DNA from: a virus
IMG/VR virus record: IMGVR_UViG_3300025087_000127
Coordinates: 1 to 45,034 of that record
Strand: one strand, 5' to 3'
DNA length: 45,034 nt
The position numbers and the translations under genes are program-made. Below the pieces are notes generated by a model. That model had not been told where the DNA came from. It worked only from the letters and a program-made list of their open reading frames with translations, and ran no database searches. Below, piece by piece: positions 1-45,034 of the stretch (within the stretch, counting starts at the first letter, position 1; the number at the start of each line of letters is the position of its first letter).

Positions 1-126
1 GATGGGAAGGTGGGTTTTGAACAAGGCCGGCGCCTCCGTGAGCTGGGGGTACTTTGATAAGCCCGGGGACTCCACCATCGTTAAGATAGTTCGCTATGCC
101 CCGGTGATTTCGCGCTATATCAAGGT
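1..126. repeat. terminal direct repeat, left copy (assembly overlap of a circular genome)
   Basis: These 126 bases are identical to 44900-45025. The giant reading frame stays open and in phase across the join, as expected for a circular or circularly permuted genome assembled with a short overlap. A true packaged terminal repeat cannot be excluded, but its position inside a coding frame and the short length favour an assembler overlap. Confidence 0.85.
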
Positions 127-253
127 GACGGACTATGGCCTGGAAGAGAAGCGGCGCGCCAAGAAGGGAGAGAAACTTGAGCGGCAAGCCGAAAAACGAA
201 TTAGGCGCAAGGATCGGAGGGCGAGCAGGAAGGACATGGTCTTGGTGCCATGA
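1..253 (+). CDS. C-terminal end of the giant polyvalent protein (continues from 33825-45025)
   Basis: This is the last part of the gene that begins at 33825. Position 2 corresponds to 44901, which is in frame with the start at 33825, so joining the contig ends gives one frame of 3,775 codons. These 83 residues are residues 3693-3775. The tail is very basic, with Arg/Lys-rich stretches such as EKRIRRKDRRASRK, and ends MVLVP. The stop TGA (251-253) overlaps the ATG of the next gene at 250. It should not be annotated as a separate 83-residue gene; the apparent start at position 2 is an internal methionine. Confidence 0.9.
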   Translation, partial: MGRWVLNKAGASVSWGYFDKPGDSTIVKIVRYAPVISRYIKVTDYGLEEKRRAKKGEKLERQAEKRIRRKDRRASRKDMVLVP

Positions 254-9288: not shown

Positions 9289-9746
9289 TCACGAAGGTAA
9301 AAGTTAAACCGGAGGCTGTTGAAATCCGGTATCTTGAAAAGGACGGGAAGGCGGACAAAGAGGTTATCTACAAATGCCCGGAAGCCCCGCACCCGGATCT
9401 GGACGCGGCCATGAGCGCGCTGGTGAGAGACGTCTACGATATCCTCGAGCTGCCGCTCGATTGGGCCCCGCAGAGGATGAAGATCACCGGCGTAAGCTTC
9501 AGCTGCCACGAAGAAACAGGCGTTGAGGGCGCGGTCATTACCGGGGTGGTGGAACTGAGAGCATCCAACGCGCCATTCTGCTTTAACACTCCCCATATCC
9601 CGTTCGATCAATACTCTGACGGCGGGACAGCCCCCGTCATGTCCGAAGCGGCGATACGGAATCTTGAAATCGTCAAACACGAGGCCGATAGGTACGTTGG
9701 CGGCAAGCGCGCGCAGCTGGAACTGGCGGGGATGGAAAAGGAATGA
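9276..9746 (+). CDS. conserved-looking early phage protein, unknown function
   Basis: The 156-residue product has a beta-rich N-terminal half and a helical, charged C-terminal end (AAIRNLEIVKHEADRYVGG). The pattern resembles small phage proteins found beside recombination genes, but I cannot name the family. The ATG follows AAGGAGA closely and the stop overlaps the ATG of the RusA-like gene. Confidence 0.7.
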   Translation: MSKIITKVKVKPEAVEIRYLEKDGKADKEVIYKCPEAPHPDLDAAMSALVRDVYDILELPLDWAPQRMKITGVSFSCHEETGVEGAVITGVVELRASNAPFCFNTPHIPFDQYSDGGTAPVMSEAAIRNLEIVKHEADRYVGGKRAQLELAGMEKE

Positions 9747-10153
9747 TCACCGGCGGGCTGGCAAAGAAGGTCACGGTGACTGACTACCGGCGCCGGGCAG
9801 TGGTTGTGACAATTCCATTTCTTTATCCGTCCGAAAACAAAATATTGAGCATGCACTTCATGGCCAGAAAAAAGGAGCATGACAGGTTCCAGAAAAACGC
9901 CGGGGTGTTTCTTAAAGCGCAACACATCCAACCATTCACGGTCCCGGTGAGCGTCTCGATTGATCTTTGCTTTATAAAGCGGCGCCGCAGGGACAACGAC
10001 AATTATACCGGGAAGTGGCTCATTGACTCAATCGTAAAGGCGGGGATATTGCCCGATGATTCCACAAAGTGGATCCCGGCCGCCCCGGACATTCTAATTC
10101 TTGACGGGGAACCCGAGGACAAAATAGTTATGCAGCTATGCTCTTGGCCGTGA
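9743..10153 (+). CDS. RusA-like Holliday-junction resolvase
   Basis: The 136-residue product has the RusA layout: a substrate-binding basic patch and the acidic metal-binding core in RRDNDNYTGKWLIDSIVKAG followed by ILPDDS. These Asp residues coordinate the metal used to cut branched DNA. RusA-type enzymes resolve junctions before packaging in many phages. The length is typical (about 120-140). The start overlaps the previous stop (ATGA). Confidence 0.8.
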   Translation: MITGGLAKKVTVTDYRRRAVVVTIPFLYPSENKILSMHFMARKKEHDRFQKNAGVFLKAQHIQPFTVPVSVSIDLCFIKRRRRDNDNYTGKWLIDSIVKAGILPDDSTKWIPAAPDILILDGEPEDKIVMQLCSWP

Positions 10154-10213
10154 GCTGAGGAAGCCCACTCGTCCAGAGAGTGATGAGGCGTATATTTAAT
10201 TTCAATGACTAAA

Positions 10214-10301
10214 TCCCGGCGGGTGTGGAAATATCTCTGTAAGTCCGTGTCACGGCATCAGCTGAGACTTGAGATAGTGAAGCTCCATTCGCCCGCCGGG
10301 A
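10214..10301 (+). ncRNA. candidate structured RNA upstream of a coiled-coil gene
   Basis: The gap 10154-10321 has no gene. A perfect 10-bp GC-rich stem (10214-10223 with 10292-10301) closes an 68-base interior that can form TATCTC/GAGATA plus AAGT/ACTT helices and a small CCGT/ACGG hairpin at the tip. No T-run follows, so it is not a simple terminator. It ends 20 bases before the next start codon and could be a translational regulator, processed RNA or ribozyme-like element. An additional small hairpin (CACTC/GAGTG) lies at about 10167-10183. I could not match a known class. Confidence 0.45.
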
Positions 10302-10321
10302 CACTTTGAGGGAGGGATATA

Positions 10322-10678
10322 ATGAGCTTTGACGAAAAACCAGAATCAGATATTCACGGAGAGTGCCGAGAAGAAATAAAAAGACTTGAATCCGACAATC
10401 TTAAAATGGTCAAGGAATACACGAGGATGCAGACGCATTTCCAGGAAGCCGTTGACCGTATTAACGACATGAAGAAACGCATCTATGGCCTCGTGGATTA
10501 TTCTGAACAATCTACTGGCAGAGAACATTTTATTCGTGGAGAGCTGATAAAGATATGCGAGAATCCTGTGGTTTTGCCGAGAACCGGAACAGTAGAAAGA
10601 CGAGAAGGCAAGCGTAAACTTACCGGAGATTCGCCGGAAGTTCAAGGAGCCAGAAAAGAGCCGGCTGATTTTATATGA
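10322..10678 (+). CDS. coiled-coil early protein, unknown function
   Basis: The 118-residue product has a long charged helix in its first 60 residues (EEIKRLESDNLKMVKEY, then MQTHFQEAVDRINDMKKRI) and a polar tail. There is a GGGAGGG site before the ATG, right after the structured intergenic element. The stop overlaps the next ATG. The family is not recognised. Confidence 0.65.
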   Translation: MSFDEKPESDIHGECREEIKRLESDNLKMVKEYTRMQTHFQEAVDRINDMKKRIYGLVDYSEQSTGREHFIRGELIKICENPVVLPRTGTVERREGKRKLTGDSPEVQGARKEPADFI

Positions 10679-10875
10679 AAACTAAACTAGCAATATCTCA
10701 AAAAGAGATTGATGAAATCTATGCGCGGATAATTGATTCCGCGAGAATGTCCATAGTTCCGCCAATGCTTTTTGCTGATTTCAAGAAGCCATCCAACACA
10801 ACCTGTTTTGTTTTAAGGGGGCGAGAGATGAAAACTGCCGCAAAAGCCAGGGCGATTGAGGGAAAGCCCGCATGA
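10675..10875 (+). CDS. small early protein, unknown function
   Basis: The 66-residue product starts MKTKLAISQKEIDEIY and overlaps both neighbours by four bases (ATGA at each end). It has no recognised motif, and the unbroken chain of overlaps is the main support for it. Confidence 0.6.
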   Translation: MKTKLAISQKEIDEIYARIIDSARMSIVPPMLFADFKKPSNTTCFVLRGREMKTAAKARAIEGKPA

Positions 10876-11267
10876 GCGAGTTTAAAAAACAATGGTACTG
10901 TGTTCATTTGCCAGCATTTGAAGGAATATGCAAACAATGTTACCTGGAAAACATAGACCCACTTTTAAAAGAACTCGCCTCCGCTGAGAAAGACAGGTGG
11001 GAGTTGAATAATTTAATTCAGGATGACATCGGTTATATTCTTGTGGCATTGGGCCTTGGGGATCATGCCCGTCCGGTTTCTCCGCATCAGGTTATCATCG
11101 GTGAAATTGTGCCTAAGTGCCAAGCCATTGAGAAAGACAGGCGGGAGTTGAGGGAGCGAATTATGAAAGCCCGCAGGGTAATGATTGACGAATGCGGACT
11201 GTGTAAAACTTGCGGAGAAGTAATCTTAAAGGCCCTATCCACGGAGGTGTCAGATGAGAAGGTTTGA
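10872..11267 (+). CDS. zinc-binding coiled-coil protein with internal repeat
   Basis: The 131-residue product has an N-terminal CVHLP and GICKQCYLEN, and a C-terminal CGLCKTCGE, so it may form zinc knuckles at both ends of a helical core. The core contains a near-perfect 24-base direct repeat (10984-11007 and 11129-11152, one base different) encoding EKDRWEL and EKDRREL. This points to an internal duplication. The start is an ATGA overlap. Confidence 0.65.
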   Translation: MSEFKKQWYCVHLPAFEGICKQCYLENIDPLLKELASAEKDRWELNNLIQDDIGYILVALGLGDHARPVSPHQVIIGEIVPKCQAIEKDRRELRERIMKARRVMIDECGLCKTCGEVILKALSTEVSDEKV

Positions 11268-11349
11268 CTCACCTAAAATCAATCCGCTTGACGGGATAAA
11301 GCGGGCCGTCAAGATTGGTCCGGGTCCGGGTCCGGGTAAACAGTTTTGA
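11254..11349 (+). CDS. 31-residue peptide sharing a segment with the Com-like protein
   Basis: A very short gene with a CGGAGGTG site before the ATG. The product ends in a GPGPGPG tract coded by three perfect GTCCGG repeats. Its DGIKRAVKIG segment is identical in protein and DNA to part of the Com-like gene at 21211. Its stop overlaps the TTG of the next gene. It may be a duplicated fragment rather than a functional protein. Confidence 0.45.
   Translation: MRRFDSPKINPLDGIKRAVKIGPGPGPGKQF
11288..11318 (+). repeat. 31-bp exact repeat, copy 1
   Basis: These 31 bases are identical to 21386-21416, about 10 kb away and in the same orientation and coding phase. Both copies encode DGIKRAVKIG. Confidence 0.95.
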
Positions 11350-11576
11350 CAATTTGCATGGGCTGTCGGCTTGGGGATCACGAACTGTGCAAGTGCGCGC
11401 CCGAGTGCAGCTGTTGGTGTCAGGACGATGAGGAACGAATGAAGAGATGCCGCGATCATTTATTTGGAATCGTCACGGGCCGGTGTGTTTTTTGTGGGTT
11501 GAACAAACCCCAACCGGAAAAAGACGCAGAGGAGAAATTCAAAAATGAAAAAAAACACCGTAATCGAAAAACTTAA
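11346..11576 (+). CDS. cysteine-rich zinc-binding protein
   Basis: The 76-residue product (TTG start in a TTGA overlap) is exceptionally Cys-rich: CMGC, CKCAPECSCWC, RCRDH and CVFCG, enough for two zinc sites. It ends in a Lys-rich tail that overlaps the start of groES by 32 bases. No enzyme motif is seen; protein-protein or nucleic-acid contacts are likely. Confidence 0.65.
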   Translation: MTICMGCRLGDHELCKCAPECSCWCQDDEERMKRCRDHLFGIVTGRCVFCGLNKPQPEKDAEEKFKNEKKHRNRKT

Positions 11577-11844
11577 ACCCCTGGCGGATCGGGTGTTGGT
11601 GCGGCCCGAACCGCAAAAGGAAGAAGTGGACGGGATCCAGCTCGCGCCCGGTGCCCAAGAAAAACCGCAGCGCGGCGTTGTCCTGGCGGCCGGTCCCGGG
11701 GTCTACGACTCGGGCAAGCTGATCAGGCTGGATGTGAAGGCCGGCCATAAAGTTTTGTACGGCAAGAATCTCGGAACAGAGATTCACATCAACGGCGAAA
11801 AGCTTCTGATCTTGAGACAGGACGATATATTGGGAACGATTTAA
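11545..11844 (+). CDS. groES: co-chaperonin GroES
   Basis: The 99-residue product is a normal-length GroES: KLKPLADRVLVRPEPQKEE, the mobile-loop region around VDGIQLAPGAQEKP, GVVLAAGPGVYD, and a C-terminal strand ending ILGTI. GroES caps the chaperonin ring and encloses the client protein. It is followed by groEL with a 39-base gap. Both genes share an identical upstream segment (GGAGAAATTCAAAAATG), pointing to matched translation rates. The residue run after VDG is somewhat divergent from cellular GroES, so the ring partner is probably the phage GroEL. Confidence 0.95.
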   Translation: MKKNTVIEKLKPLADRVLVRPEPQKEEVDGIQLAPGAQEKPQRGVVLAAGPGVYDSGKLIRLDVKAGHKVLYGKNLGTEIHINGEKLLILRQDDILGTI

Positions 11845-13801
<1,957 letters not shown>

Positions 13802-16169: not shown

Positions 16170-16501
16170 GCATGAAACTGCCGCCTTCTCCGGATCAAAA
16201 TAGTCCGGATCCATCTTCTTCAGAAGTGCGTCAAAAGGAGGCATCATTGGCGCGGCTTCCAAAAATGTCAACGATCGGCAGCGGATTCTATAGGGAATGC
16301 CCGGTTTATTGCCTGTGCTATACCTGTGGAGGGATGATGATCAACGACACCGTGATATCGACTCTGCTTTGCCCGAAATGCCCGTCAAAACTGCCGATGA
16401 TGAATTTTTCCGATTTCGATTATGCCGTGAAAGAGAGCCAGCGCTCAAAAGGAGAGAAGTTCCTTCGCGAGCGCGGTGAATCATTGGGAGGAGCAGCGTG
16501 A
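16166..16501 (+). CDS. small zinc-ribbon protein in the packaging operon
   Basis: The 111-residue product has CPVYCLCYTCGG and LLCPKCP, which fit a zinc ribbon, between a Ser/Pro-rich N-terminus and a charged C-terminus. The ATG at 16166 overlaps the large terminase stop (ATGA). Its stop overlaps the GTG of the next gene. The function is unknown. Confidence 0.65.
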   Translation: MSMKLPPSPDQNSPDPSSSEVRQKEASLARLPKMSTIGSGFYRECPVYCLCYTCGGMMINDTVISTLLCPKCPSKLPMMNFSDFDYAVKESQRSKGEKFLRERGESLGGAA

Positions 16502-17118
16502 GCAAGCGGGCCGTGAAATCTTACGATACCAGCCTTTGTACCCCGCTCGGGGACGTCATTGTGGCGGAGCCATTTGACCGGATCGCGGTAATTGATGGCA
16601 TTATGATCGCCGCAGAAGAGGAAAAGTCCCATGAGGAAACAAAATCCGTGGTCCGCGCTGTCGGACCGGAAGTCACCAAGGTTAAGCCCGGTGACGCCAT
16701 TTTTCATAGCCGGTATGCCGGATCCCCAACCGCAATCAACGAAAAGCCGTTCATTGTGATGAGGGAGAGCCGCGCCGCCAACGACCTGTTTGGTATTTTC
16801 TTTGGCAACCGTCCGATCGACATCTCCCCAATGGACGACATTCTTTTCGTGGAGTGGGAGGACGGCACAAAGGAATTCCAGGGAACCAAGATCCAGAAGG
16901 TTGGAATCGACATGGAGCGGCATTACACCGGCATTATCCTTACGCATGGACCGGATGTGATGGACAAAAGGATCAAGTCTGGCCAGCGGATATTCTTCAA
17001 TCAGTTCTGCTCCCCGGAGCGCGTGGATTACCAGGGCAAGCGCTATGCCTTCATCCGGGAATATGACGCCCTTTTGATCGTTCCGAGCCGAACCGAAATG
17101 GCGGTGCTTGCGGCATGA
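16498..17118 (+). CDS. tandem double GroES-fold protein in the head operon
   Basis: The 206-residue product (GTG start, GGGAGGAG upstream) appears to be two GroES-like domains in a row. Domain 1 (about 15-100) has LGDVIVAEPFDRIAVIDGIM, then VVRAVGPEVTKVKPGDAIF and a terminal FIVMRES strand. Domain 2 (about 102-200) has ISPMDDILFVEW, TGIILTHGPDV, SGQRIFFNQF and YAFIREYDALLIV. A seven-subunit ring could form from fewer chains than usual. It is separate from the groES at 11545 and lies between terminase and portal, so it may be a dedicated co-chaperonin for capsid protein folding or a structural protein using the same fold. The call is by pattern of strands and Gly-Pro turns. Confidence 0.65.
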   Translation: MSKRAVKSYDTSLCTPLGDVIVAEPFDRIAVIDGIMIAAEEEKSHEETKSVVRAVGPEVTKVKPGDAIFHSRYAGSPTAINEKPFIVMRESRAANDLFGIFFGNRPIDISPMDDILFVEWEDGTKEFQGTKIQKVGIDMERHYTGIILTHGPDVMDKRIKSGQRIFFNQFCSPERVDYQGKRYAFIREYDALLIVPSRTEMAVLAA

Positions 17119-21239: not shown

Positions 21240-21474
21240 AACTCTCCCGGCCGATCCGGCCGCGGACCAGGAATGGGCCCTGCCCGGGGATAATGAGCCA
21301 GGGTGGGTAGACGTCCGGTGTTGCGGCGTTATGGACCGTCAGCTTTGCAACAAGCTTTTGTTGAGGATCACAGCGGCGCCAACCTTTGACGGGATAAAGC
21401 GGGCCGTCAAGATTGGGTTGGACATGAAATGCCGGCGCTGCAAGGAAATAAATTACCGGGTGATCGTCATATGA
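21211..21474 (+). CDS. Com-like zinc-finger protein
   Basis: The C-terminal 55 residues follow the Mu Com pattern: VRCCGVMDRQLCNKLLL, then a spacer, then LDMKCRRCKEINY, giving two Cys pairs around a zinc. Com of phage Mu activates translation of the Mom DNA-modification gene. Here the N-terminus is extended and acidic. I chose the TTG at 21211 with AAAAGGAG about ten bases upstream; a frame open from 21133 lies inside the previous gene. The spacer DGIKRAVKIG is coded by the 31-bp repeat shared with 11254-11349. Confidence 0.65.
   Translation: MEPESSSLAETLPADPAADQEWALPGDNEPGWVDVRCCGVMDRQLCNKLLLRITAAPTFDGIKRAVKIGLDMKCRRCKEINYRVIVI
21386..21416 (+). repeat. 31-bp exact repeat, copy 2
   Basis: Identical to 11288-11318, in the same reading phase, inside the Com-like gene between the two Cys pairs. 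Confidence 0.95.
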
Positions 21475-28805: not shown

Positions 28806-29561
28806 ATGAAGCGCATAATATCACTTTTCCTGTTTTTCTGCATTATAGGGATTCATTCTGCTGAAGCGCTCACGCTTTCCGATATCCGGACATCCATCCG
28901 CCGTGAAGTGCATGACAATCCCGCCGATACGGCCCGCCGCCGATATTCCGATACCGTCCTCAATGACCTGATCAATGAAGGACAGCGCGAAATCACAATC
29001 GCTGGGGACCTTGCGGACAAAACCACCGTCTATACTCTTTCCCCACGGACCACTTATTATATCCTTCCGACCGATGTTATCGGGGTCAAGCAAATTTATT
29101 TCACGGACAAATTTTTCCAGCTTCTTGAGCTTGAGGAAAAACCCCAAAAATCCCTCTATGATAAAAACCCACAATGGGAAAGAAACTCAGGATCCCCAAA
29201 CTCATACTGGATCAGCCAAGCCACTCACCCGCGAAACCAGCAATCGGCGCCGCTCCGGATCTCCTACATTCCTATCCCGACCAACCTGTCCACCGGGACA
29301 GTCACCATCTGGTATTCCTACATAATGTCGGACCTATCGGCGGACACTGATGTTCCGTTTGAAAACCGCAGAAACCTTTACCCCTACCACGCCGCGCTCA
29401 TTTACTATACCGTGGTCCGCCTGAAAGTGACGGAAGGTAAAATATCAGAGGCGTCCACCTACCAGCAGCTCTATACCTCGACTTTAAATTCCATGAAAGG
29501 AAAACTCGGGGAAATGCCAAACTACACCCCTGGAATAGCAATCCCTGGAGTTAATCGGTAG
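28806..29561 (+). CDS. head-tail adaptor-like protein with a signal peptide
   Basis: The 251-residue product has the phage neck adaptor pattern after residue 22: TLSDIRTSIRREVHDNP, RRRYSDTVLNDLINEGQREI, YILPTDVIGVKQIYF, and a final helix around AALIYYTVVRLKVTEGKISE. Adaptors of this type bind the portal and seat the tail. Unexpectedly it is preceded by a strong Sec signal (MKRIISLFLFFCIIGIHSAEA). AGGAGGG precedes the ATG. How a neck protein with a cleavable export signal meets a cytoplasmic procapsid is unclear. Confidence 0.75.
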   Translation: MKRIISLFLFFCIIGIHSAEALTLSDIRTSIRREVHDNPADTARRRYSDTVLNDLINEGQREITIAGDLADKTTVYTLSPRTTYYILPTDVIGVKQIYFTDKFFQLLELEEKPQKSLYDKNPQWERNSGSPNSYWISQATHPRNQQSAPLRISYIPIPTNLSTGTVTIWYSYIMSDLSADTDVPFENRRNLYPYHAALIYYTVVRLKVTEGKISEASTYQQLYTSTLNSMKGKLGEMPNYTPGIAIPGVNR

Positions 29562-33087: not shown

Positions 33088-33825
33088 ATGGCAACACCAA
33101 ATTGGCTTAAAACGCGGGCAGATCTTCAAGCGGACCAGGACCGGGCCCTGATGGAGAGGGCGCTGCTCCAAGGCGGCCACATGCAGCCCGATATCCCAAA
33201 AGGCGGGCTTGTCATGCGCGGACCCAACGGTCTTTATGTTGTGGATCCTAATCAGGCGGCCGGAACGGATGAAGCCGAGCGGCCACTGAAGTTTAAGGCC
33301 AAAGATGATGATTCTGTTGAAGGCGGCCCACTCTTCACGATGAAGAACGGGGTGATAACCCCGCTTCCCAAAATGCCGGGACTTAAACGGAAAGAGCAAA
33401 TTATAAATTACAGCGAGCCGTCGGAAAAAGAAAACCCGCAGCTCACCATGGCCAAGGAAACGTACAAGGAATATGTGCGAAAAATTGCCGCAGGGGAAGC
33501 TACGACCGACACCTTCTTAAAACAAGTGGAGGCGATTGCCCCTCTGCTGAGTTTGGTCAAGGTGAGAAATCGCGGAGAGGAAAAGACAAGTGGTTGGTGG
33601 AAAAAGACCCCAACGGGAGAATTTGATCCTGGACCTACCATCTATAAGCCGGCGGAGAACGTGACGGCGGACGAATGGGCCGTAACGGCACAGGAAGAAA
33701 TCCTGGATGCCATGGCTCTGGATAAAAAGTATTCTGGACTGTCCGAAGCTGAAAAAAGAAAGCTGATCGGGCCCAAGGCCATTCAAGACGCGATCTTCCA
33801 GCTCCGGGGTGCTGGGAAAAAGTAA
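33088..33825 (+). CDS. virion-region protein of unknown function
   Basis: The 245-residue product starts MATPNWLKTRADLQADQD. It contains LVMRGPNGLYVVDPNQAAG and several charged helices, with no signal peptide and no recognised domain. AAAGGAGG precedes the ATG. Its TAA overlaps the ATG of the giant gene (TAATG), so the two are probably co-translated, suggesting a partner or internal virion protein. Confidence 0.65.
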   Translation: MATPNWLKTRADLQADQDRALMERALLQGGHMQPDIPKGGLVMRGPNGLYVVDPNQAAGTDEAERPLKFKAKDDDSVEGGPLFTMKNGVITPLPKMPGLKRKEQIINYSEPSEKENPQLTMAKETYKEYVRKIAAGEATTDTFLKQVEAIAPLLSLVKVRNRGEEKTSGWWKKTPTGEFDPGPTIYKPAENVTADEWAVTAQEEILDAMALDKKYSGLSEAEKRKLIGPKAIQDAIFQLRGAGKK

Positions 33826-36800
33826 TGGCTTTAGACCTCTCCATCATACAGCTTGAGGATTCTCCTCTCGATGATGAAAAAAAGAGGGTTCTTCCAGACA
33901 GCGAACAACCCAACTTATTAAAGGTTGGTAAGCCGGCCCAGGCCGGAAAAATAGACCTGTCGGGGATCACCCTTGAAGAGCCCGGTGCGGAAAAAGAGGA
34001 AAAAGCCCCTTTTTCCGCACCGAAGGTTAAGCCTCTTCTCCAGGATCTTGCCCGCCGCGCCGCCAGAGCCACGGAGGCCGTCCCGGGATCCACCCCACTC
34101 AAATACCTCGAAGAGATGTATGGCCCCAAAGCCACGCCGCTCAAGCCCGTAACGGAAGGAATGAAAACGGCCAAGGATTTCACGGTTCAAGCCGCCGGGG
34201 TCTTTAAACTTCGCCAACCCTTCATGTACGAGCAATCCATAAAACTGCCGGGGAATGATAAAAGGACGCTCACTCCAGAGCAGGCTGCCTGGGAAAGAGA
34301 CGTCAACGCCATGGTGGAAATCGAAGCCCAAGACCTGGCAAAGAACCTTGCAGGGAAACGACACCCATCCCTGGAAGCCGCTCAAAGCGGCCAAAAACAG
34401 CTTCAGCTTGTCATGGACCTTGGCTTTATAGCGGCCGCGGCAGCGGGGACTGGCGCGGTGCTTACTCCAGTCAAAGAACTGCCCAAGATCGCCAAGTTCA
34501 TCACTCAAATGCCGCGGCTGGCCCGGCTGGTGGAGGCCGGAGCCATCGGGATCCCCTATGCAACCTCTCAAGAATTTAGGAAGGTGACCCAAGAAGATCA
34601 AACGCTCAAAGAAGCTTTTTCCACCTATCCTGAAGATGTGGCAAAAAATGTTGCCGGATTTATGGCATTTTCAGCGGCCGGGCAGCTTGCCGGTGCGGCG
34701 TTTGACAAGGTTGCCTATGACCGGGTCGTCCAAACCATGCCTCTCAAAGTTATCACACTCACGGCGGAGAAGGTGAAAGACTTTCTTGGCAGCCTGGAAG
34801 CAAATCCAGGGATGCGGGAATTCATGAACAAGGCTGTGCCCGGATTCCAGGAATTGGCCAAAAAAACATTTAAGACGGGCGAAGAGACGAAAGTTTTGAT
34901 CCCCGAGATTATGGTAACCAAGATGGCAGCAAAGCCGTGGTACCAGGCTTTCCGCAAGGCCCTCGTCTCGGATGCAGAGCCGGTCATGCCGCGCCTGTTT
35001 GCGCAAGGGAAAGACGTTGCCAGAACGTTGGTTGATGTTGGAGGCGTCCCGCCACCGCCCGCTGGACAGCTTCCCGGCCCGAAAGGGCCTCTCACAATGC
35101 CTCCTGGTGGGCCCGGATCCACCGGCGCGCCGGCCTCACCCATAGATTTGGCCAAAATCCAGCTTGAGCCCGCCGCTACGGCCCCATCCGCCGGGGGTAC
35201 GATTGCGCCATTTGGATCCGGGGAGCAGGGGGACCCCAAGGACCTGATCCAATTCAATGAAGAGGCCAATCCGATCAAAGAAGCCAGAAAGAAGGGGCTG
35301 GACGACCTGGGCTTGATTGCGGTCCGGTACACGGATGAAAGGACAGGCCTTTTAAAGAGCGATTTCTTGGGTGAGGCGCGCACGAAGCTCCCATCCTATG
35401 AGCATCCAGACAATGAGGAGAAGCCGCTGGATGAGATGCCCATGCTGATTGCCGACCTGGACAATTTCAGCAAAATAAACAACACCTACGGCCATAAAAT
35501 GGGGAATATGGTCCTCAAAACCGTTGGGGATCTTGCCAAGAAGTTTGCGGACGAAAACGGCCTGATCGCGGTCCGGGACGGCGGGGAAGAATTCAAATTC
35601 ATCATTTTAAACAAACAGGATCCGTCGGATCTGGCCGTAAAGCTGGATAAGGTGAGGGACGACCTTAAGAGGGCCAAATTTATTGACGAAACGACCGGGG
35701 AAGTGCTTTTCACAGGGGTAAACTTCAGCGCGGGGTTTGGCGTCAATTTTGAGAGGGCGGACAAAAGGCTTTACGACGCAAAAAAAGCAGGGAAAGGGCG
35801 AACCACCCCCATTGACATTCCCGAATTGGAGAAGTACAATAACCTTGGAGGTACCAAACATGAGCTTAAAAGAAAAGAGGCCGCGGCCACCGATCTTGAG
35901 CGACAAGGAACTCCAAAAGAAGTACCCGAAGGTTTACCCAAACCCGGTTCGAGTGGAGCTGGACGGGCAGACGATCGGGAGATACGACCCTCCGGGAAAC
36001 AACCACCCGCCCAAGAAGTAAAGCCTCCGACCCCAAAAACGCCCGCCGATGTAACGGCGTCCCACACGCCGCTTCTCCAGGACATTGTCCCCCAGGAAAA
36101 GAAACTTGCCGGCCAATCTGACATCGTCCAATTCGTCATAAAAAATGGCGGGATCGACCCCGGGAAGGATTCCGGCGATATTTTAGAGCTTGGAGACAAG
36201 CGCCTCATAAAGAAAACCGGGAAATCCCTGGACCACATGAGGGAAGCCGCCGCTGAAGCGGGCTATATCCCGCGCGATACCTCCAGTCAGGAACTCATTG
36301 ATCTTATCGACACCCAATTAAAGACGGGCAAGCGTCAATTCGCCGTTTTGGGCGGCGCGGAGAGCATTGAGACGCGGCCGGTATCGAACTTGAGCGCTCG
36401 AGAACTCATTCAAGCCGAAGAAGATTTTAATGCCCTCAAAGCCAAGCGGCCTTTGACCGAAACAGAGGCAGAGATTTATTTCGAAGTCCAGGAAATACGC
36501 GAGCGGACCGGCGCGGCGATAAAGATTGACCTGTCAAAACTCCCGCTTGAAGAGCCGCCGGCGCCCGCCGCCGGAGAAATCCCACCGGACATTTTAAAGC
36601 GTCTTGAAGCCGCGGCGCTCACTTTCCTGCGAAGGCATGGCTCAATGCCTTATGACAAGATTCTCGAAGGTGCAAAAGCCGGATACCTGAAAGAGGTTCA
36701 AGCCGGCGGACCGGCCGCGGGGCTTGAAATGATTGAGGAGGCAGAGAGGGTCCTTGACAAAGGGAAAAACGGTGATATACTCGAAGGGGAGGATCCCAAT

Positions 36801-39800
36801 GCCAGAACTGAAGCTGCACCAATTGAGCGAGGAGAGGAAGGGTCTCGGCCCGTGGGGGCAAGAGGCGGAGATCCATTGGAGGGCGAACCTCCCGCTGCTT
36901 TACCAGGCTTTAAAGAAGGCGGGGAAACTCCAGGAAGCGCTCCAAAACGCGGACAAGCGGACCGCGGCGGCGTTCCACAAGGAGAAGGAAAAGCTGGAAA
37001 GCCGGGGGATGGATCCGGCACAGGCGGCAACGATCGCCCTGGAACTGGTGAGGGAGGAGTGGGTTTACCTTCAAGCGGAGGAGGACCAGCTTCTACCAGA
37101 CAGCGAGAGCTTAATCGAAAATCTGCTTTAGAGAAACTTTCCAATTACCGCATCACCGCCGCTGACCGAATCGGCGAAGGCACACCCGAAGAAAAATACC
37201 AAAACAACATAGCCGCGATCAAGCTTCTTAAACAGCTTGAACTGGAAGGCCGGCCGCCGCTGCCCGAGGAAATGCCCGTTCTTGCCCGATACGTCGGATG
37301 GGGCGGCATGCCTCAAGTCTTTGACGATTACAACCCCAAATTTAAAAAGAAATTCACAGAACTCGAAGCCCTCCTGACGCCGGAAGAGTACGAAGCCGCC
37401 CGCGCGTCCACTCCAAACGCCCACTATACGTCCCCCGAAGTGATCAACTCCATGTACGAAGCCATAAAGCGTATGGGGTTCACCGATGGCCGCATCCTTG
37501 AGCCGGCGGCCGGAGTCGGGAACTTTATTGGCATGATGCCCGAAAGCATCATCCTAGATTCTAGGATAACGATGGTGGAGCTGGACAGCATTTCCGGACG
37601 GATCGCCAAAGCCCTTTATTCCGCAGAGGACGTCCGGATCCAGGGTTTTGAGACCGTGAAGATCCCGGACAATTATTTTGACCTGGCCATTTCAAACGTT
37701 CCATTCGGGAATTTCCCTGTCCATGACCCGGCCTATGCGAAGCTGGGGTTGGCCCGGAGCATCCACAATTACTTTTTCGCCAAATCCATCGACAAGGTGC
37801 GCCCCGGCGGGCTGCTGGCATTCATCACGAGCCGATACACCATGGACGCGGAGGATCCGCGCATCCGAAAATATTTGAGTGAGCGAGCCGACCTGGTGGG
37901 AGCCATCCGCCTCCCCAACACCGCGTTCAAGAAGAATGCCGGGACCGAAGTGGTGACGGACATCATCTTTTTGCAAAAGCGCGAATCCTGGCAAACCCCG
38001 AAGGACGCCTCCTGGGTTGAAACCACGGAAACGAAAGTGGGCCGGGAATCCGTAGAAATCAATTCTTATTTTGCAAAGAACCCGGCGATGATGCTTGGAA
38101 AGCCGGCCATGTCCGGGACCATGTATGGTGACAAGGAATTCACATTGGAGCCCACCGGGGACCTTCCACAACAACTGACCCAGGCGATTGCGAAGCTGGA
38201 CGCCAACATATATAAGGCCGCGGCGGCCGCCAGGAGCGCTGTGCGCGAAGTTTCCGTACCGGCCCCGGAATTCGTGAAGGAAGGCGGCCTCTTTGTGGAT
38301 GGAGGAAAAGTATATAAGAAGATCGGGGACACCGGAGAGGAATTCGGAGGAATATCTGTCCCGCACATTCAATCCTTCCTCAAAGTCCGGGACCAGCTTC
38401 GAACAACCATGGGCAACCAGCTCATGGGAAATGAAGCACTGATCCCGGCCGACCAAAAAGCGCTGAACAAAGCCTACGACAATTTTGTCGCAAATTACGG
38501 GCCGATCAACGCCAAAAAAAATGAAGTCTTTGCTCCTGACCCAGATTATCCGATGATGCTGGCCATTGAAAAAAAGAACAAGGATACCGGGAATTATGAG
38601 AAAGCGGACATTTTTTCAAAGCGCGTTCTCGCGCCGGATCTTAAAGTGGAGTCCGTAGAAACCAGCCTCGAATCTCTCTTCGTCTCCTTAAACGAGACCG
38701 GCCGGCTTAACTTTGCTCGCATGGAAGCGCTCACCGGAAAAAGCCGCGCGGATCTGATCGCGGAACTGAAGGGATCGATCTACAAAAACCCGGAAACCTC
38801 TCAATACGAAACCGTGGATCAATATTTGAGCGGGAACGTGCGCCGGAAGCTGGAACTGGCGGAGAGCGCCGCCAAGAACGACCCGGATTATAAAGAGAAT
38901 GTCCACGCCCTGAAAGAAGTCCAGCCTAAAGACTTGATGCCCGCGCAGATCAAGGCCCGGCTCGGTTCACCCTGGATCCCGGCCGAAGTGGTAGATCAAT
39001 TTGCAGCGGAACTCTTCAATTTGCCGCTTGAGAGCAGCATCACCACCACCTATATTCCCCAAGCCGCTACCTGGGCCGTGGATGAAGGCCGCAATCGCTG
39101 GAGTTTGTCCGACAACGTGGGCAACACCAAAACTTGGGGGACAGACCGCTATCCCGCCGTTAATCTCATCTCGGACACCTTAAACCACAAGCTGCCAACC
39201 GTGTACGACCGGGACGCGGGGGAGGCTGTTGTAAACAAGGCGGAAACGGAAGCGGCGCGGGACAAACAGGAGAAGATCAAAGAGAAGTTCCAGGCCTGGG
39301 TGATGGCAGATCCAAAACGTGCCACAGACCTTGCCGCCATCTATAACCGAGACTTAAACAATATCGTCCTCCGCACCTATGACGGGAAGCATCTCACCCT
39401 TCCGGGAGCCAACCGCCTCATATTTGAAAAGCTCCGAAAACACCAGAAAAATGGGATATTTCGTTCCTTGCAGGGAAAAAATGTTCTCCTGGCGCATGCC
39501 GTGGGCGCTGGCAAGACCTGGGAAATGGCCGGGATCGCCATGGAAAGCAAGCGGATCGGGCTTTTCAATAAGTCGGTCATCACGGTCCCCAAGAACCGCC
39601 TAAAAGCGACCGCGGCTGAATTTCTCCAGATGTACCCGTCCGCGAATCTGCTTGTTGCTGACAGCCAAGACTTGTCCGAAGCCAACCGCAAGGTATTTAA
39701 ATCCCGGGTCGCCACCGGGGATTGGGACGCCATCATCATCAGCCATGACAGTTTTTCCCGGATCCGCATGGGCGACGCAACCATCCAGAAATTTCTGGAC

Positions 39801-42800
39801 GACAAGATGGCGGAATTCACACATGCCATTGAGGCAGCGCGCGGAAGCGGCGGAAAAAATATGTCGGTCAAGGAACTGGAAAAAGCCAAGAAGCGCATAG
39901 AGGCAAAGCTCAAGGCAATGATGAAACAGGAAAAGAAAGATGAAGGCCTCACATTTGAGGAACTGGGGATTGATCAGATCATCGTTGACGAGGCACAAAA
40001 TTATAAGAGCCTTTTCCTGGTAACCCAAATGACGCGGGTGAAGGGGATCCCCACAAGCGCCGCGGACCGCGCCTTCGATATGTTCATGAAAACCGAGTAC
40101 CTTAACCGCGTGAACAACGGGAAGGGCATCGTTTTCGCTACCGGAACGCCCGTCACCAACACAATCGCTGAAATTTACATCATGCAGAGGTATCTCCAGA
40201 ACGAAATGCTCAAGTCCTACGGGATCGACAATTTTGATGCCTGGGCCCACACGTTCGGTGAAACCGTGACCGGCTTCGAACTGGACACCACCGGGAAAGG
40301 ATTCCGGCCCGTGTCCCGCTTCTCCAAATTCTCAAATATGCCGGAACTCTTGAACATCTTTTTCCAGGTGGCGGACGTACAAACAGCGAAGATGCTTAAC
40401 CTCCCGGTCCCAAAACTCAAAGGCGGAGCGCCCCAGCCGGTCATTTCGAAGCCTTCCCCGGAACTTTTGGAGTATGTCCAGAAGCTCATGAAGCGCGCGG
40501 AGGATGTGCGCGCCGGCCGGGTGGACAAAACGGACGACAACATGCTCAAAATTTCAACGGACGGCCGGAAGGCCGCTATGGACATGCGCCTGGTGGATCC
40601 TACCGCCAAAGATTATCCCGGAAGCAAGTCAAATCTGCTCGTGGATAAGCTTGTGGACATTTTCCGCGCAAATGCCAAAACCCGGAGCATCCAGCTCGTA
40701 TTCAGCGATTTGGGGACGCCTGGGACCAGCGGCCACTTCTCTGTTTATGACGATATCCGAAAGAAGCTCGTTGCCAAAGGCATCCCCAAGGAACAGATCG
40801 CCTTCATTCATGACGCCAAAACGGCCGACGCACGGAAGCTCCTGGAAGAGAAGGTGAACTCCGGGCAGATCCGCATCCTGGTTGGAAGCACACCCAAGAT
40901 GGGCCTTGGAATGAACGTGCAAGAACGGATCGTGGCGCTTCACAACCTGGACGTCCCCTGGCGGCCGGATTGGCTGGAACAGCGGAATGGCCGCGCACTC
41001 CGGCAGGGCAACCTATATCACGATGAAGTCCAGATTTATAATTACGGGACAGAAAAAAGCTTTGACGCCTTCATGTGGCAGACTGTGGAGAGAAAAGCAA
41101 AATTCATTTCTCAAGTAATGTCCGGGGAGATAAGCGCCCGCGAAGTGGAGGACGTTGACGACGTCGTTCTGAACTTCGCCCAAATGAAAGCCATCACGAC
41201 CGGGGATCCAACCATTCTGGAAAAGGTGGAACTGGACGCCAAGATCGCCAAGATGCAATCCTTGCAGACGACCTTCCTCAACAACCAGCACATGGCTCAC
41301 ATGGAGATAGCGGCTCTCCCGGACAAACTGAAAGGCCTGGAAACAACGATCACGGAGATTGAGGCCGACCTGGCAACCATTTCCAAGTACGATCCAAAGA
41401 ATTTCAAGATCACGCTTGGCAGCATGGAAATTGACGAGCGCGTCCGTGCCGGCGAGAAGATCATGCTCCTGGCAAGGCAGCACCGCGTTGAGGGCCGCGT
41501 GGGCCAGGACTTCCATATCGGCGAATTTAAGGGCCTCCCCCTCTTCATTTATCCCGCCGGCGTCACCGGCAACCCTGACCGGATCCACGTTCAAGGAAAA
41601 GCCTTCAAGTATGAGGCGTTCATCGGTGATTCCCCGGACGGCCTGATCAAGAGCCTGGATTATCAGTCCGGGCTGGAAACGCTCAAGAAGAAGCTCGAGT
41701 CATACCACGAAGCGAAGTCCACCCTGGAAAAGAAGCTCAAGGATCTGGAACAGGAAGTCAAAAAGCCTTTCCCGGATGCTGACAAACTGAAGGACATGGC
41801 CGCGCGACAGCAAGAACTGGAAAAGAAGCTGGACATGAGCAAAGGCGAATCAACCGTTGGCACAGCGGAGGAGGAGCGGGCCGGCGCGTCCGATCCGGAG
41901 GACCAGCCTCCCGCGCGCGATTCTGCTTCAGTGAAGCAGAATGGAGGAGGCGGCGGCGGAGCAGCCATGAGACCCCAGGGCGGCGCGGCCGCGCGGGCAC
42001 CCAGCACAAAACCAGGGCCCGGGGGACCGCCAGAAGGAGAAGCGGCTGGTGATGGCGAGGTTGAACAGCCAAAGAACCCGGTATGGCCAGGATCGCCAAA
42101 CGACTTTATTCCTCATATCGAAATGCCGGAACTGGTGCGCTTCGTGCGGCTGCTAACTGGGCATATTCCAACCGTAAAGAAGCTGCGGCGAAATCTCGGG
42201 TATTTTAAGGGGCAAACAGGCGGACCGGAATCCAGCATATCTCTGGACATTGGCATTTTCAAGGATCCGGTTGAGGCAACGAAAATACTGGCGCACGAAA
42301 TTGGACATTTGGGTGATTGGCTTTCAAACTTTCACCTTGACCGCGGGAACATACTCGGCCGGCTCAAGACCCTCATTGGGTACCGCAAAACCCTGATTGA
42401 CCCGCTTCCCTCCGCCAACGACGCCCTGGACCCTGTGGACCGGCGGAAGCTGAAGAACGCGGCGATCAAGGAGGCTTTGAGCCACACGGATTATACCCTG
42501 GCGAACTATATCAAGAACCCGGAGATTCGGCGGGCCATGTGGCCTCTTATCCGGGAAACCTACAATCAGATGGTGGCCGACGAAATCAAGAAAAAAGGCC
42601 TCATCACCAAAGAGCAAGTGATGAACGAGCTTAAAGCGGTCACCCGATACTGGCATCCTTTCGACCCCGACAAGGACGCCAAGTACACCGCATACCGCTT
42701 TTCCGCGAAGGAACTCTACGCGGAGGCCCTTTCCATGCTATTTAATGAGCCTCTCCGCCTAAAGGAGATGGCTCCCACTTTCTATAAAGCCTTTTGGGAC

Positions 42801-45034
42801 AATCTGGAAAAGAAGCCCGAAGTGCAGTTCAACCTTTTGGAGCTGGACGAACTGCTCGGGACGGAGCAAGGACGGAAGCAGATTTTGGAGCAACGATCCA
42901 TTGACACCCGCGAGGGTTATTGGAAGGGAGAGAAAATCTGGTATCAGAAGCGCATGGAGCGGTCCCTCCGGAAGCGGAATTTCTGGCTCACGTTGAAGGA
43001 TGAGCTGGTGGACAGAAACGCCGCGCTGATCGCCAAGGTCAAAGAACTGCAAAAGCAGGGGAAGAAACTCAATCCGGAAGACAATCCCATCTATTACCTT
43101 GAGGAATATAATTACTTGGGCGGAAAAATTCACAACCTTCTTGGAGACATTTCAAAAGATGTTCTGGAAGAAACCGCGCGCCTGGGGATCTCCCAGGAAG
43201 ACATCGGAGAGTATCTCGAACGCCGGCGCGTCGTTAAGGAGAGAAAAGAAATCGCCAATCCGCTTGGGCAAAACATTATGACGGCGCAGAAGTCTCTGGA
43301 ACACCTGCTCTCTAAGTTCAACGATCTACAGAGGAGCGAGCTGGAAAAAGCGATCCAGAATTTTGCAGGTGGTTTTGAGAAACTATTCAAGGAAATGTAT
43401 GACGTCGGCCTTATATCTGCCGAGAATTACCTCAAATACAAGGACAACGACGCCTACGCCACATTTGCCGTTGTAGATTACCTTTCCGATTACATTAGTG
43501 CCGGCATCATTCATCAGGTGGGGACGTTTAAGGAAATTGCCAATCCCTTAACCGCCTCAATCATGAAGATGATTTCGATGAAGCGCGCGGTGGAGCGGGA
43601 AAAGACCCGGAAGATGGTCCACAAATTCATGATGGACAACGTCCCGGAAGAAATCAAGGAAGCGGAATATAAATTTATCGGCATGAAAGGGGACATACCC
43701 ATCCGGGAGCCCCGAGAGAAGGAGGGGTTCGGGATACTCACGATTCACGTGGACGGGAAGGCCAAACATTTTTACGTGGATCCATATATTGCTGACTCCG
43801 TGAATTATACCCCACAGCAGTTTAACAGCGCGATCATACGCGCGCTGCGCTGGTTCAATCAGGGATGGTTCCGGCCGATCTATATCAACCTCAACCTGGG
43901 ATTCCAGAGCTTTAACCTAATCCGCGACTTTATGCGCGGCTGGAAACTCAACCCCGATGTCTCCTTTGCCGGGCAACTGCTGGCCTATTACCGCGCGGCG
44001 CCGTCCGCCTATTCCGCAGTTTGGGGGAAACGCCCGGACCAGATCATTCATGACATGCGAGAGCATGGGATGTCCAGCATCACCTATAACGACATGTTCA
44101 AGGGCGCGGAGGGGGAGGATAGCCAGATCGAATATTTGCAAAAGAAGTACGGCTTGGGGCCAGCCACAGGAAAGGAAAAGCGGAACCCATTCATCGCCGT
44201 GATGGACTTTATCAGCGACCTGGGAAATTTCATAGAACTTCTTCCCAAGGTGGCTGGGGCCCAAACGCGAATCAAGGCTGGCCGGATCCCAATGAGACTG
44301 ATAACCCACGAGGTGCAGCATTATGCCGGATCCCCGAACTTTCTCCGTAAGGGACGCGGGTACACCTGGTATAACGAGGTTTTCCTTTTCCTGAACGCCG
44401 CGAAAGAAGGGTTTCGAGGCGATTTCGAGGGGGCCTTTACGAACCCGCGGACCCGCGCCGGATATTGGTGGAAAACAACCGCAACGGTCCTTGTCCCTGC
44501 CCTCTTGGCGTTTCTGGCCGCCGCCGGCTTCGCAGGTAAAAAGATGAAGGAGATGTACGACCGCGTCACAGAATATGACAAGACCAGTTATATCGTAATT
44601 CCGATGGGGATGACGGACAACGATCAAGTCGTCTATCTAAGGATCCCGATGGACGAGGTCGGGAGGCTCATTCATGGCGTGTTTTGGAAGATGCTGACCG
44701 GCACTGACGACGTTTTGGAGGCGGCAGTGCAAGTGGCCGGTCTGACAGCTGGGCAGATGCCATCCCAGGCGCCTATCCTGGATATGGTTACAACCGTGTC
44801 GGAATACATGATTGGGCGCAACCCCTACGATTGGTTCCGGGGCCGGCAGATCCTTACGGATGACGAACAGCGAGTGCGGGGCCTTCCAGCCGCAAAGAAG
44901 ATGGGAAGGTGGGTTTTGAACAAGGCCGGCGCCTCCGTGAGCTGGGGGTACTTTGATAAGCCCGGGGACTCCACCATCGTTAAGATAGTTCGCTATGCCC
45001 CGGTGATTTCGCGCTATATCAAGGTACCCCCAGC
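33825..45034 (+). CDS. giant polyvalent phage protein: GGDEF, methylase, helicase, zinc peptidase, LPD38-like (continues at 1-253)
   Basis: I read this frame codon by codon and found no stop from 33825 to the contig end; joined at the repeat it continues to 253, about 3,775 residues. Domains: hydrophobic segment near 200-220; GGDEF about 500-664 (GGEEF at 586-590); methylase about 1190-1400 (NAHYTSPEVI, ILEPAAGVGNF at 1224-1234, SNVPFG at 1290-1295); helicase about 1880-2430 (Walker A VGAGKT at 1893-1898, DEAQ at 2055-2058, TGTP at 2106-2109, QRNGRALRQG at 2386-2395); zinc peptidase HEIGH at 2824-2828 with downstream Glu about 2967; C-terminal membrane helix about 3551-3571 in an LPD38-like region. 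The methylase-helicase pair resembles those of conjugative elements and phage P1 DarB. It is probably ejected into the host. Disordered linkers are at about 406-469, 664-746, 982-1102 and 2676-2756. The last nine bases (45026-45034) are not part of it. Confidence 0.9.
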   Translation, partial: MALDLSIIQLEDSPLDDEKKRVLPDSEQPNLLKVGKPAQAGKIDLSGITLEEPGAEKEEKAPFSAPKVKPLLQDLARRAARATEAVPGSTPLKYLEEMYGPKATPLKPVTEGMKTAKDFTVQAAGVFKLRQPFMYEQSIKLPGNDKRTLTPEQAAWERDVNAMVEIEAQDLAKNLAGKRHPSLEAAQSGQKQLQLVMDLGFIAAAAAGTGAVLTPVKELPKIAKFITQMPRLARLVEAGAIGIPYATSQEFRKVTQEDQTLKEAFSTYPEDVAKNVAGFMAFSAAGQLAGAAFDKVAYDRVVQTMPLKVITLTAEKVKDFLGSLEANPGMREFMNKAVPGFQELAKKTFKTGEETKVLIPEIMVTKMAAKPWYQAFRKALVSDAEPVMPRLFAQGKDVARTLVDVGGVPPPPAGQLPGPKGPLTMPPGGPGSTGAPASPIDLAKIQLEPAATAPSAGGTIAPFGSGEQGDPKDLIQFNEEANPIKEARKKGLDDLGLIAVRYTDERTGLLKSDFLGEARTKLPSYEHPDNEEKPLDEMPMLIADLDNFSKINNTYGHKMGNMVLKTVGDLAKKFADENGLIAVRDGGEEFKFIILNKQDPSDLAVKLDKVRDDLKRAKFIDETTGEVLFTGVNFSAGFGVNFERADKRLYDAKKAGKGRTTPIDIPELEKYNNLGGTKHELKRKEAAATDLERQGTPKEVPEGLPKPGSSGAGRADDREIRPSGKQPPAQEVKPPTPKTPADVTASHTPLLQDIVPQEKKLAGQSDIVQFVIKNGGIDPGKDSGDILELGDKRLIKKTGKSLDHMREAAAEAGYIPRDTSSQELIDLIDTQLKTGKRQFAVLGGAESIETRPVSNLSARELIQAEEDFNALKAKRPLTETEAEIYFEVQEIRERTGAAIKIDLSKLPLEEPPAPAAGEIPPDILKRLEAAALTFLRRHGSMPYDKILEGAKAGYLKEVQAGGPAAGLEMIEEAERVLDKGKNGDILEGEDPNARTEAAPIERGEEGSRPVGARGGDPLEGEPPAALPGFKEGGETPGSAPKRGQADRGGVPQGEGKAGKPGDGSGTGGNDRPGTGEGGVGLPSSGGGPASTRQRELNRKSALEKLSNYRITAADRIGEGTPEEKYQNNIAAIKLLKQLELEGRPPLPEEMPVLARYVGWGGMPQVFDDYNPKFKKKFTELEALLTPEEYEAARASTPNAHYTSPEVINSMYEAIKRMGFTDGRILEPAAGVGNFIGMMPESIILDSRITMVELDSISGRIAKALYSAEDVRIQGFETVKIPDNYFDLAISNVPFGNFPVHDPAYAKLGLARSIHNYFFAKSIDKVRPGGLLAFITSRYTMDAEDPRIRKYLSERADLVGAIRLPNTAFKKNAGTEVVTDIIFLQKRESWQTPKDASWVETTETKVGRESVEINSYFAKNPAMMLGKPAMSGTMYGDKEFTLEPTGDLPQQLTQAIAKLDANIYKAAAAARSAVREVSVPAPEFVKEGGLFVDGGKVYKKIGDTGEEFGGISVPHIQSFLKVRDQLRTTMGNQLMGNEALIPADQKALNKAYDNFVANYGPINAKKNEVFAPDPDYPMMLAIEKKNKDTGNYEKADIFSKRVLAPDLKVESVETSLESLFVSLNETGRLNFARMEALTGKSRADLIAELKGSIYKNPETSQYETVDQYLSGNVRRKLELAESAAKNDPDYKENVHALKEVQPKDLMPAQIKARLGSPWIPAEVVDQFAAELFNLPLESSITTTYIPQAATWAVDEGRNRWSLSDNVGNTKTWGTDRYPAVNLISDTLNHKLPTVYDRDAGEAVVNKAETEAARDKQEKIKEKFQAWVMADPKRATDLAAIYNRDLNNIVLRTYDGKHLTLPGANRLIFEKLRKHQKNGIFRSLQGKNVLLAHAVGAGKTWEMAGIAMESKRIGLFNKSVITVPKNRLKATAAEFLQMYPSANLLVADSQDLSEANRKVFKSRVATGDWDAIIISHDSFSRIRMGDATIQKFLDDKMAEFTHAIEAARGSGGKNMSVKELEKAKKRIEAKLKAMMKQEKKDEGLTFEELGIDQIIVDEAQNYKSLFLVTQMTRVKGIPTSAADRAFDMFMKTEYLNRVNNGKGIVFATGTPVTNTIAEIYIMQRYLQNEMLKSYGIDNFDAWAHTFGETVTGFELDTTGKGFRPVSRFSKFSNMPELLNIFFQVADVQTAKMLNLPVPKLKGGAPQPVISKPSPELLEYVQKLMKRAEDVRAGRVDKTDDNMLKISTDGRKAAMDMRLVDPTAKDYPGSKSNLLVDKLVDIFRANAKTRSIQLVFSDLGTPGTSGHFSVYDDIRKKLVAKGIPKEQIAFIHDAKTADARKLLEEKVNSGQIRILVGSTPKMGLGMNVQERIVALHNLDVPWRPDWLEQRNGRALRQGNLYHDEVQIYNYGTEKSFDAFMWQTVERKAKFISQVMSGEISAREVEDVDDVVLNFAQMKAITTGDPTILEKVELDAKIAKMQSLQTTFLNNQHMAHMEIAALPDKLKGLETTITEIEADLATISKYDPKNFKITLGSMEIDERVRAGEKIMLLARQHRVEGRVGQDFHIGEFKGLPLFIYPAGVTGNPDRIHVQGKAFKYEAFIGDSPDGLIKSLDYQSGLETLKKKLESYHEAKSTLEKKLKDLEQEVKKPFPDADKLKDMAARQQELEKKLDMSKGESTVGTAEEERAGASDPEDQPPARDSASVKQNGGGGGGAAMRPQGGAAARAPSTKPGPGGPPEGEAAGDGEVEQPKNPVWPGSPNDFIPHIEMPELVRFVRLLTGHIPTVKKLRRNLGYFKGQTGGPESSISLDIGIFKDPVEATKILAHEIGHLGDWLSNFHLDRGNILGRLKTLIGYRKTLIDPLPSANDALDPVDRRKLKNAAIKEALSHTDYTLANYIKNPEIRRAMWPLIRETYNQMVADEIKKKGLITKEQVMNELKAVTRYWHPFDPDKDAKYTAYRFSAKELYAEALSMLFNEPLRLKEMAPTFYKAFWDNLEKKPEVQFNLLELDELLGTEQGRKQILEQRSIDTREGYWKGEKIWYQKRMERSLRKRNFWLTLKDELVDRNAALIAKVKELQKQGKKLNPEDNPIYYLEEYNYLGGKIHNLLGDISKDVLEETARLGISQEDIGEYLERRRVVKERKEIANPLGQNIMTAQKSLEHLLSKFNDLQRSELEKAIQNFAGGFEKLFKEMYDVGLISAENYLKYKDNDAYATFAVVDYLSDYISAGIIHQVGTFKEIANPLTASIMKMISMKRAVEREKTRKMVHKFMMDNVPEEIKEAEYKFIGMKGDIPIREPREKEGFGILTIHVDGKAKHFYVDPYIADSVNYTPQQFNSAIIRALRWFNQGWFRPIYINLNLGFQSFNLIRDFMRGWKLNPDVSFAGQLLAYYRAAPSAYSAVWGKRPDQIIHDMREHGMSSITYNDMFKGAEGEDSQIEYLQKKYGLGPATGKEKRNPFIAVMDFISDLGNFIELLPKVAGAQTRIKAGRIPMRLITHEVQHYAGSPNFLRKGRGYTWYNEVFLFLNAAKEGFRGDFEGAFTNPRTRAGYWWKTTATVLVPALLAFLAAAGFAGKKMKEMYDRVTEYDKTSYIVIPMGMTDNDQVVYLRIPMDEVGRLIHGVFWKMLTGTDDVLEAAVQVAGLTAGQMPSQAPILDMVTTVSEYMIGRNPYDWFRGRQILTDDEQRVRGLPAAKKMGRWVLNKAGASVSWGYFDKPGDSTIVKIVRYAPVISRYIKVPP
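35860..36021 (+). CDS. 53-residue overprinted gene inside the giant gene
   Basis: In another + frame, an ATG at 35860 with TTGGAGG eight bases upstream gives a product starting MSLKEKRPRPPILSDKELQK and continuing KVYPNPVRVELDG, a convincing small protein. The giant frame opposite it (residues 679-733) is a Lys/Glu/Pro-rich disordered linker. The signal that the small frame is the constrained one is its normal composition and ribosome binding site. Function unknown. Confidence 0.5.
   Translation: MSLKEKRPRPPILSDKELQKKYPKVYPNPVRVELDGQTIGRYDPPGNNHPPKK
36799..37131 (+). CDS. TnpV-like protein overprinted inside the giant gene
   Basis: An ATG at 36799 with AAGGGGAGG upstream opens a 110-codon frame in another phase. 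The product (MPELKLHQLSEERKGLGPWG, then LPLLYQALKKAGKLQEAL, and an EEWVYLQAEED end) follows the layout of TnpV proteins of mobile elements: a WG turn, an LY..L..GKL helix pair and a C-terminal helix ending in an aromatic. The giant frame opposite (residues 992-1103) is Gly/Pro-rich low complexity, as if forced by the inner gene. TnpV function is not known. Family assignment is from memory of the pattern. Confidence 0.55.
   Translation: MPELKLHQLSEERKGLGPWGQEAEIHWRANLPLLYQALKKAGKLQEALQNADKRTAAAFHKEKEKLESRGMDPAQAATIALELVREEWVYLQAEEDQLLPDSESLIENLL
44900..45025. repeat. terminal direct repeat, right copy
   Basis: Identical to positions 1-126. The true genome is 44,899 bp if this overlap is collapsed. 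Confidence 0.85.
45024..45034. other. fold-back artefact at contig end
   Basis: The last 11 bases, GTACCCCCAGC, are the reverse complement of 42-52 (and 44941-44951). They diverge from the expected continuation at position 127. A short inverted copy at a contig tip is typical of chimeric reads or amplification fold-back. Confidence 0.75.

Follow-up and report, generated by a model that had tools for sequence, protein, structure and literature searches.

The question raised by this locus is whether a small phage genome really devotes a single giant gene to a protein that modifies, remodels and signals at entry and, if so, what a GGDEF domain would do there. The window, as we call the whole stretch of viral DNA analysed (45,034 nt), had been interpreted in a first-pass annotation as carrying one polyvalent gene that joins a GGDEF domain, an adenine-type methylase, an SF2 helicase, an HExxH peptidase and an LPD38-like region. 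Searches on slices of the frame, which that annotation had advised, recovered the named domains: GGDEF, methylase, SF2 helicase and HExxH were found, with LPD38 as a weak match below its cut-off.

Domain composition of the giant protein

The central part of the protein is a DarB-like core (37122..41864, plus strand), delimited from PHROG 10089, alignment and motifs, and comprising an LPD36-like VGWGG element, an adenine methylase (aa ~1195-1390) and an SNF2-type helicase (aa ~1869-2435), the same order of LPD36, adenine methylase and SF2 helicase as in DarB-like anti-restriction proteins. PHROG 10089 ('DarB-like antirestriction') matches aa 1007-2700 with 1,664 bits, while Pfam returned N6_Mtase (1.7e-4), ResIII (2.6e-5, ResIII/SNF2) and Helicase_C (1.4e-7). 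The motifs VGWGG, YTSP, LEPAAGVGNF, NVPF, VGAGKT, DEAQ, GTP and QRNGRALRQG are present in the core. An alignment with ten relatives shows that those of the methylase (VGWGG, YTSP, LEPxxGxGNF, N(V/P)PF) and of the helicase (VGAGKT, DE, GTP, QRxGRxxRQG) are kept, the methylase NPP(F/Y) being replaced by NVPF here as in the fecal relatives. Low-complexity linkers lie between the modules. We are thus nearly certain that this is a DarB-like polyvalent protein; several unrelated activities (GGDEF, methylase, SNF2-type helicase and HExxH region) stand together in one giant chain, which is how Iyer et al. 2017 recognise polyvalent proteins. PADLOC matches were rejected as defence systems, being explained by shared helicase and methylase folds. 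The nearest cellular DarB cores (44-46%) belong to Verrucomicrobiota MAGs (L096-L099, L126, L157), mostly in compact frames of ~1,700 aa, which may be a weak hint to the host or to the source of the gene.

The C-terminal half contains the HEIGH of a metallopeptidase region (aa 2824-2828; 42294..42308, plus strand), with a possible third ligand in ELYAEA at aa 2963; this region matched no Pfam family. A single protein among phage records, the 2,329-aa product of Pelagibacter phage Baldr (OQ414636), is related to the HExxH part and the C-terminus, and HE(I/L)GH and the downstream AE are conserved in it. The likeness runs from HExxH to LPD38 (22% identity over ~900 aa, E 3e-30) and the Baldr gene is located after tail tubular protein genes, but the Baldr protein has neither a DarB core nor a GGDEF domain. 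A hydrophobic segment detected by hydropathy (aa 3549-3573; 44469..44543, plus strand) is followed by the LPD38-like region (aa 3576-3684; 44550..44876, plus strand), which is common to Baldr and matches Pfam with 20.1 bits against a family cut-off of 27 (E 7.2e-4).

The first-pass annotation had called this combination unusual in so small a genome, and here it has to be revised on two counts. Vibrio phage VvAW1 (NC_020488; 38,682 bp, circular) has a DarB gene of 3,640 aa that fills 28% of its genome, and in 16 DarB-core viral contigs of 37-46 kb, which may be fragments, the DarB gene takes up 20-37% of the length; giant DarB genes occur commonly in small genomes. Furthermore, Iyer et al. in 2017 (PMC5512222) discussed polyvalent proteins with GGDEF domains and described a giant protein of an Acetonema longum prophage (WP_004096050.1) that unites GGDEF and an adenine methylase with a SWI2/SNF2 ATPase and a zincin-like peptidase. 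Compared by its published description, that protein differs in having also an ART domain, for which Pfam gave no match in the window protein, and in residing in a Firmicute genome. VvAW1 and the Bcep22-like phages (JC1 gp69, BcepIL02 gp70) resemble the window phage in the DarB core (35-39% identity) and in a gene of 3,640-4,680 aa that occupies 22-28% of the genome and closes the structural run, but they have no GGDEF, a different phage backbone and other N-terminal parts, such as lysozyme/transglycosylase in Bcep22-like phages.

The GGDEF domain itself is rare in DarB genes: Pfam found it inside the DarB frame in 1 of 88 other DarB-bearing records. Pfam was used for this count because a GGDEF profile of our own making lacked the power for it; a two-row profile was too unspecific for use on cellular genomes. 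The single case is a DarB-core viral protein on a 39-kb contig (L063:1-9978), with an SGDEF motif and an HExxH similar to that of the window. On a fecal phage contig, another of the 88 records (L008:359-2317), a separate GGDEF gene lies directly upstream of a giant DarB gene. The overall domain set is of a known kind, and what is worth following is the substitution in the GGDEF domain, a second viral architecture, and a set of repeated peptide tags.

The GGDEF domain and its altered base-reading residue

The GGDEF domain (aa 538-658; 35436..35798, plus strand) carries DLDNF, INNTYGHKMGN and GGEEF, and was identified by Pfam (PF00990, E 5.5e-15), by PDB sequence search and by modelling. Structure prediction per domain had also been advised at first pass; run on this domain with 19 alignment rows, AlphaFold2 gave a model that agrees with the GGDEF fold (pLDDT 78, pTM 0.75) and replaced one made without alignment (pLDDT 38). 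Foldseek aligned it with solved PDB diguanylate cyclases at a TM of about 0.7.

What is new here is a domain whose GGEEF (aa 586) is intact, as is its DxD metal site (DLDNF, aa 544), and yet which has Asn (GHKMGN) in place of the canonical Asp at the PleD-type guanine-reading position, and in which a search for an RxxD I-site found none. The 61 other viral GGDEFs whose motif could be read all have Asp at this position; because many are near-identical prophage copies, they amount to far fewer than 61 independent cases. The portion of PMC6456294 used here states that the base-reading residue has to be matched in length to the D/E of the motif, Ser paired with GGEEF being inactive; the pairing of Asn with GGEEF is not described in that portion. 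Because of this possible mismatch, with DxD and GGEEF kept and Asp lost, we put the predicted catalytic activity of the domain at about even. Identity as a Hypr cGAMP synthase was ruled out since that class needs Ser/Thr with GGDE(F/Y), and here the residue is Asn and the motif GGEEF.

A second viral protein bears on how the domain may work. A GGDEF-led search retrieved L176 (IMGVR_UViG_3300042988_001700; 661-11409), where GGDEF, methylase and a Strawberry-notch helicase share one frame of at least 3,583 aa. The two GGDEF domains are 32% identical (E 3e-20) and alike in GGEEF, absence of the I-site, a short C-terminal loop and a place N-terminal of methylase and SF2 helicase. L176 differs in its Strawberry-notch-type helicase, its 98-kb contig and its canonical Asp at the base-reading position, for which reason its GGDEF should be an ordinary cyclase. 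As read from its sequence, L176 is an independent viral GGDEF-methylase-helicase architecture, new here, and the pairing of GGDEF and methylase with two helicase types argues for a working link.

These observations could also be explained if the domain were a regulatory part that binds GTP or a cyclic nucleotide and switches the adjacent methylase-helicase, instead of a signal-making enzyme. This reading is tentative, though a serious one: the change of the guanine-reading Asp to Asn, the missing I-site, the matching rule of PMC6456294 and the fact that GGDEF precedes a methylase-helicase pair in two layouts unrelated to each other all speak for it, whereas the retained DxD metal site, the full GGEEF and the canonical Asp of L176 speak for an enzyme.

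Proposed role at phage entry and the peptide tags

Virion proteins among its homologues suggest where the giant protein is carried. JC1 gp69 was identified in virions by mass spectrometry with 51 unique peptides (PMC9144972), and DarB of phage P1 is located in the head, its first 30 residues being sufficient to load a reporter (PMC9024508). P1 DarB is likewise a methylase-helicase anti-restriction head protein believed to enter the cell; it differs in its length of 2,255 aa and in its need for further Dar proteins, and no GGDEF or HExxH region is described for it. Moreover, the giant gene ends the structural run, with terminase, capsid and adaptor genes upstream on the same strand, which links it to packaging and late genes, and it is placed after head/tail genes as in VvAW1, BcepIL02 and Baldr. 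The earlier proposal of an ejected protein is thus supported by homology: since the named domains, the position after structural genes and the virion homologues concur, the giant protein is likely virion-borne and ejected. Taken as a whole, the locus would with good probability encode an anti-restriction protein that is carried in the virion and injected, and to which a cyclic-dinucleotide synthase, possibly active, has been added.

The same protein could instead be expressed late and stay unpackaged inside the cell, its methylase modifying progeny DNA before packaging. Virion location in this phage is deduced from homologues, which leaves room for such a role, but those homologues, JC1 gp69 and P1 DarB, are themselves virion proteins, and position and architecture fit ejected proteins; we consider intracellular action improbable.

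If the protein is ejected, its synthesis would, as the homologues suggest, fall late, ahead of its uptake into the phage head and its delivery with the DNA. The SNF2-type motor would then travel along the DNA as it enters, and the adenine methylase would mark that DNA or shield it from restriction. Modules may be cut free from the polypeptide by the metallopeptidase, a release proposed by Iyer et al. (PMC5512222), and the LPD38/hydrophobic end may have a role at the membrane or inside the virion. From the GGDEF domain would come a pulse of a cyclic dinucleotide, most likely c-di-GMP, free of the I-site brake, and this pulse would disturb host signalling or nucleotide-based defence. With the window, the rare polyvalent proteins that bear GGDEF gain a small-phage genome that appears complete, and with L176 a second, independent viral architecture; together they make it testable whether a nucleotide-signal synthase is injected at entry and which product it makes.

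Candidate signals for loading or cleavage come from a short peptide with the pattern D-L-(S/A)-x-(I/L)-x-L-E, present in four copies, all in linkers and all on the plus strand: ALDLSIIQLEDS (aa 2-13; 33828..33863), KIDLSGITLEEP (aa 42-53; 33948..33983), PIDLAKIQLEPA (aa 439-450; 35139..35174), which precedes the GGDEF module, and KIDLSKLPLEEP (aa 900-911; 36522..36557), which precedes the DarB core. The pattern was found nowhere else in the six frames of the window. When the giant protein was scored by the second and fourth copies, the third and first ranked next; in 0.6% of 2,000 shuffles the second-best match reached the level of the weaker of these two.

Repeated peptides were also sought in the first 90 residues of other proteins (shuffle p < 0.02). 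They occur in 19 of 70 giant viral DarB proteins, a few of the 19 being low-complexity or weak pairs, compared with 7 of 256 internal control windows and none of the 60 DarB frames that came from genome contigs; the window protein under this test alone gives p = 0.10. N-terminal repeats within the first ~60 aa of the giant frame are seen in L021, L025, L027, L029, L034, L071, L077, L081, L083, L090, L091, L092 and L176. The peptide differs by phage and is almost confined to the giant frame, and in some proteins it returns in later linkers, as with DIFDQVAPD, which stands at the N-terminus of L021 and has more copies further on. Tags sought in neighbouring genes of the same loci gave one chance-like match with the loosest pattern (L094), and inspection by eye of the first 120 aa of P1 DarB showed no obvious repeat of this sort. 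Because the test followed sight of the pattern and the loci are partly related, the repeats are a lead and not a proof. If the tags do serve head loading or cleavage, they would offer a general way to study how capsids are loaded with giant proteins. All these elements might be joined in one rather speculative proposal, which we think unlikely as a whole: an injected cyclic-dinucleotide synthase, with substrate choice altered by its Asn, would be coupled to a methylase-motor tracking the entering DNA, and phage-specific tags, at the N-terminus and before modules, would be the signals by which giant injected proteins generally are loaded into heads or cleaved.

The reading frame, the contig ends and the genome setting

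The gene runs on the plus strand from 33825 to 45025 (codons 1-3733) and continues at 127..253 (final 42 codons and stop) once the circle is closed. Its ATG overlaps the stop of the preceding gene (TAATG), and the frame has no stop from 33825 to the contig end (33825-45032); the longest stop-free frame in shuffled sequence (n=20) was 385 codons. The first 126 nt of the window (1..126) are a direct terminal repeat, 100% identical to 44900-45025, whose collapse keeps the frame and yields a genome of 44,899 bp. The joined segments then encode 3,775 aa plus stop with zero internal stops. Re-translation of the closed circle thus bears out the first-pass claims of a frame that crosses the ends, of 3,775 codons and of a quarter of the genome (25.2%), the length being right because the repeat is collapsed; naive end-to-end joining gives 3,820 aa, 45 of them falsely duplicated. 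The gene does end at 253 as first read, but it does not resume at position 2, which belongs to the repeated copy, the true junction being 45025/127.

A 9-nt tail, ACCCCCAGC, at 45026..45034 is likely a fold-back end artefact in the simplest reading, its reverse complement matching the start region near 42-55, and it may hide the terminal repeat from automatic circularity tests. That the giant gene is partly an assembly artefact of ends that do not belong together is scarcely credible: the fold-back tail, the false duplication on naive joining and a junction unconfirmed by any close relative would allow it, but the contig itself contains 11.2 kb of the frame, stop-free and with codon-position GC stable along the gene, and closure, where the 126-nt repeat joins in frame, matters for the last 42 codons only.

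No near relative of the whole phage was found, and when viral contigs were scanned with single sequences, neither the N-terminal/GGDEF part nor the DarB core, the C-terminal part or the portal retrieved a relative; in the window, Rfam matches and tRNAs were absent. The gene content comprises a terminase, a capsid protein, an SU10-type adaptor (28806..29561, plus strand; PF24175, E 1e-21), which is a virion gene upstream of the giant gene, an NlpC/P60 hydrolase, a replication initiator, GroEL and two GroES-like genes. The chaperonin genes lie at 11545-13521 and 16498-17118, and a leader of 21 nt around the ribosome site is nearly identical in groES and groEL (11527, 11866). An identical 31-nt element with the inverted repeat TTGACGG...CCGTCAA, of which none is expected by chance, occurs at 11288-11318 and 21386-21416, before the GroES/GroEL genes and the scaffold/capsid genes, and is possibly an operator, terminator or processing site. 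Finally, the gene at 4100-5278 belongs to the Gp3-like recombination directionality factor family (E 2e-39), which hints at a temperate relative.
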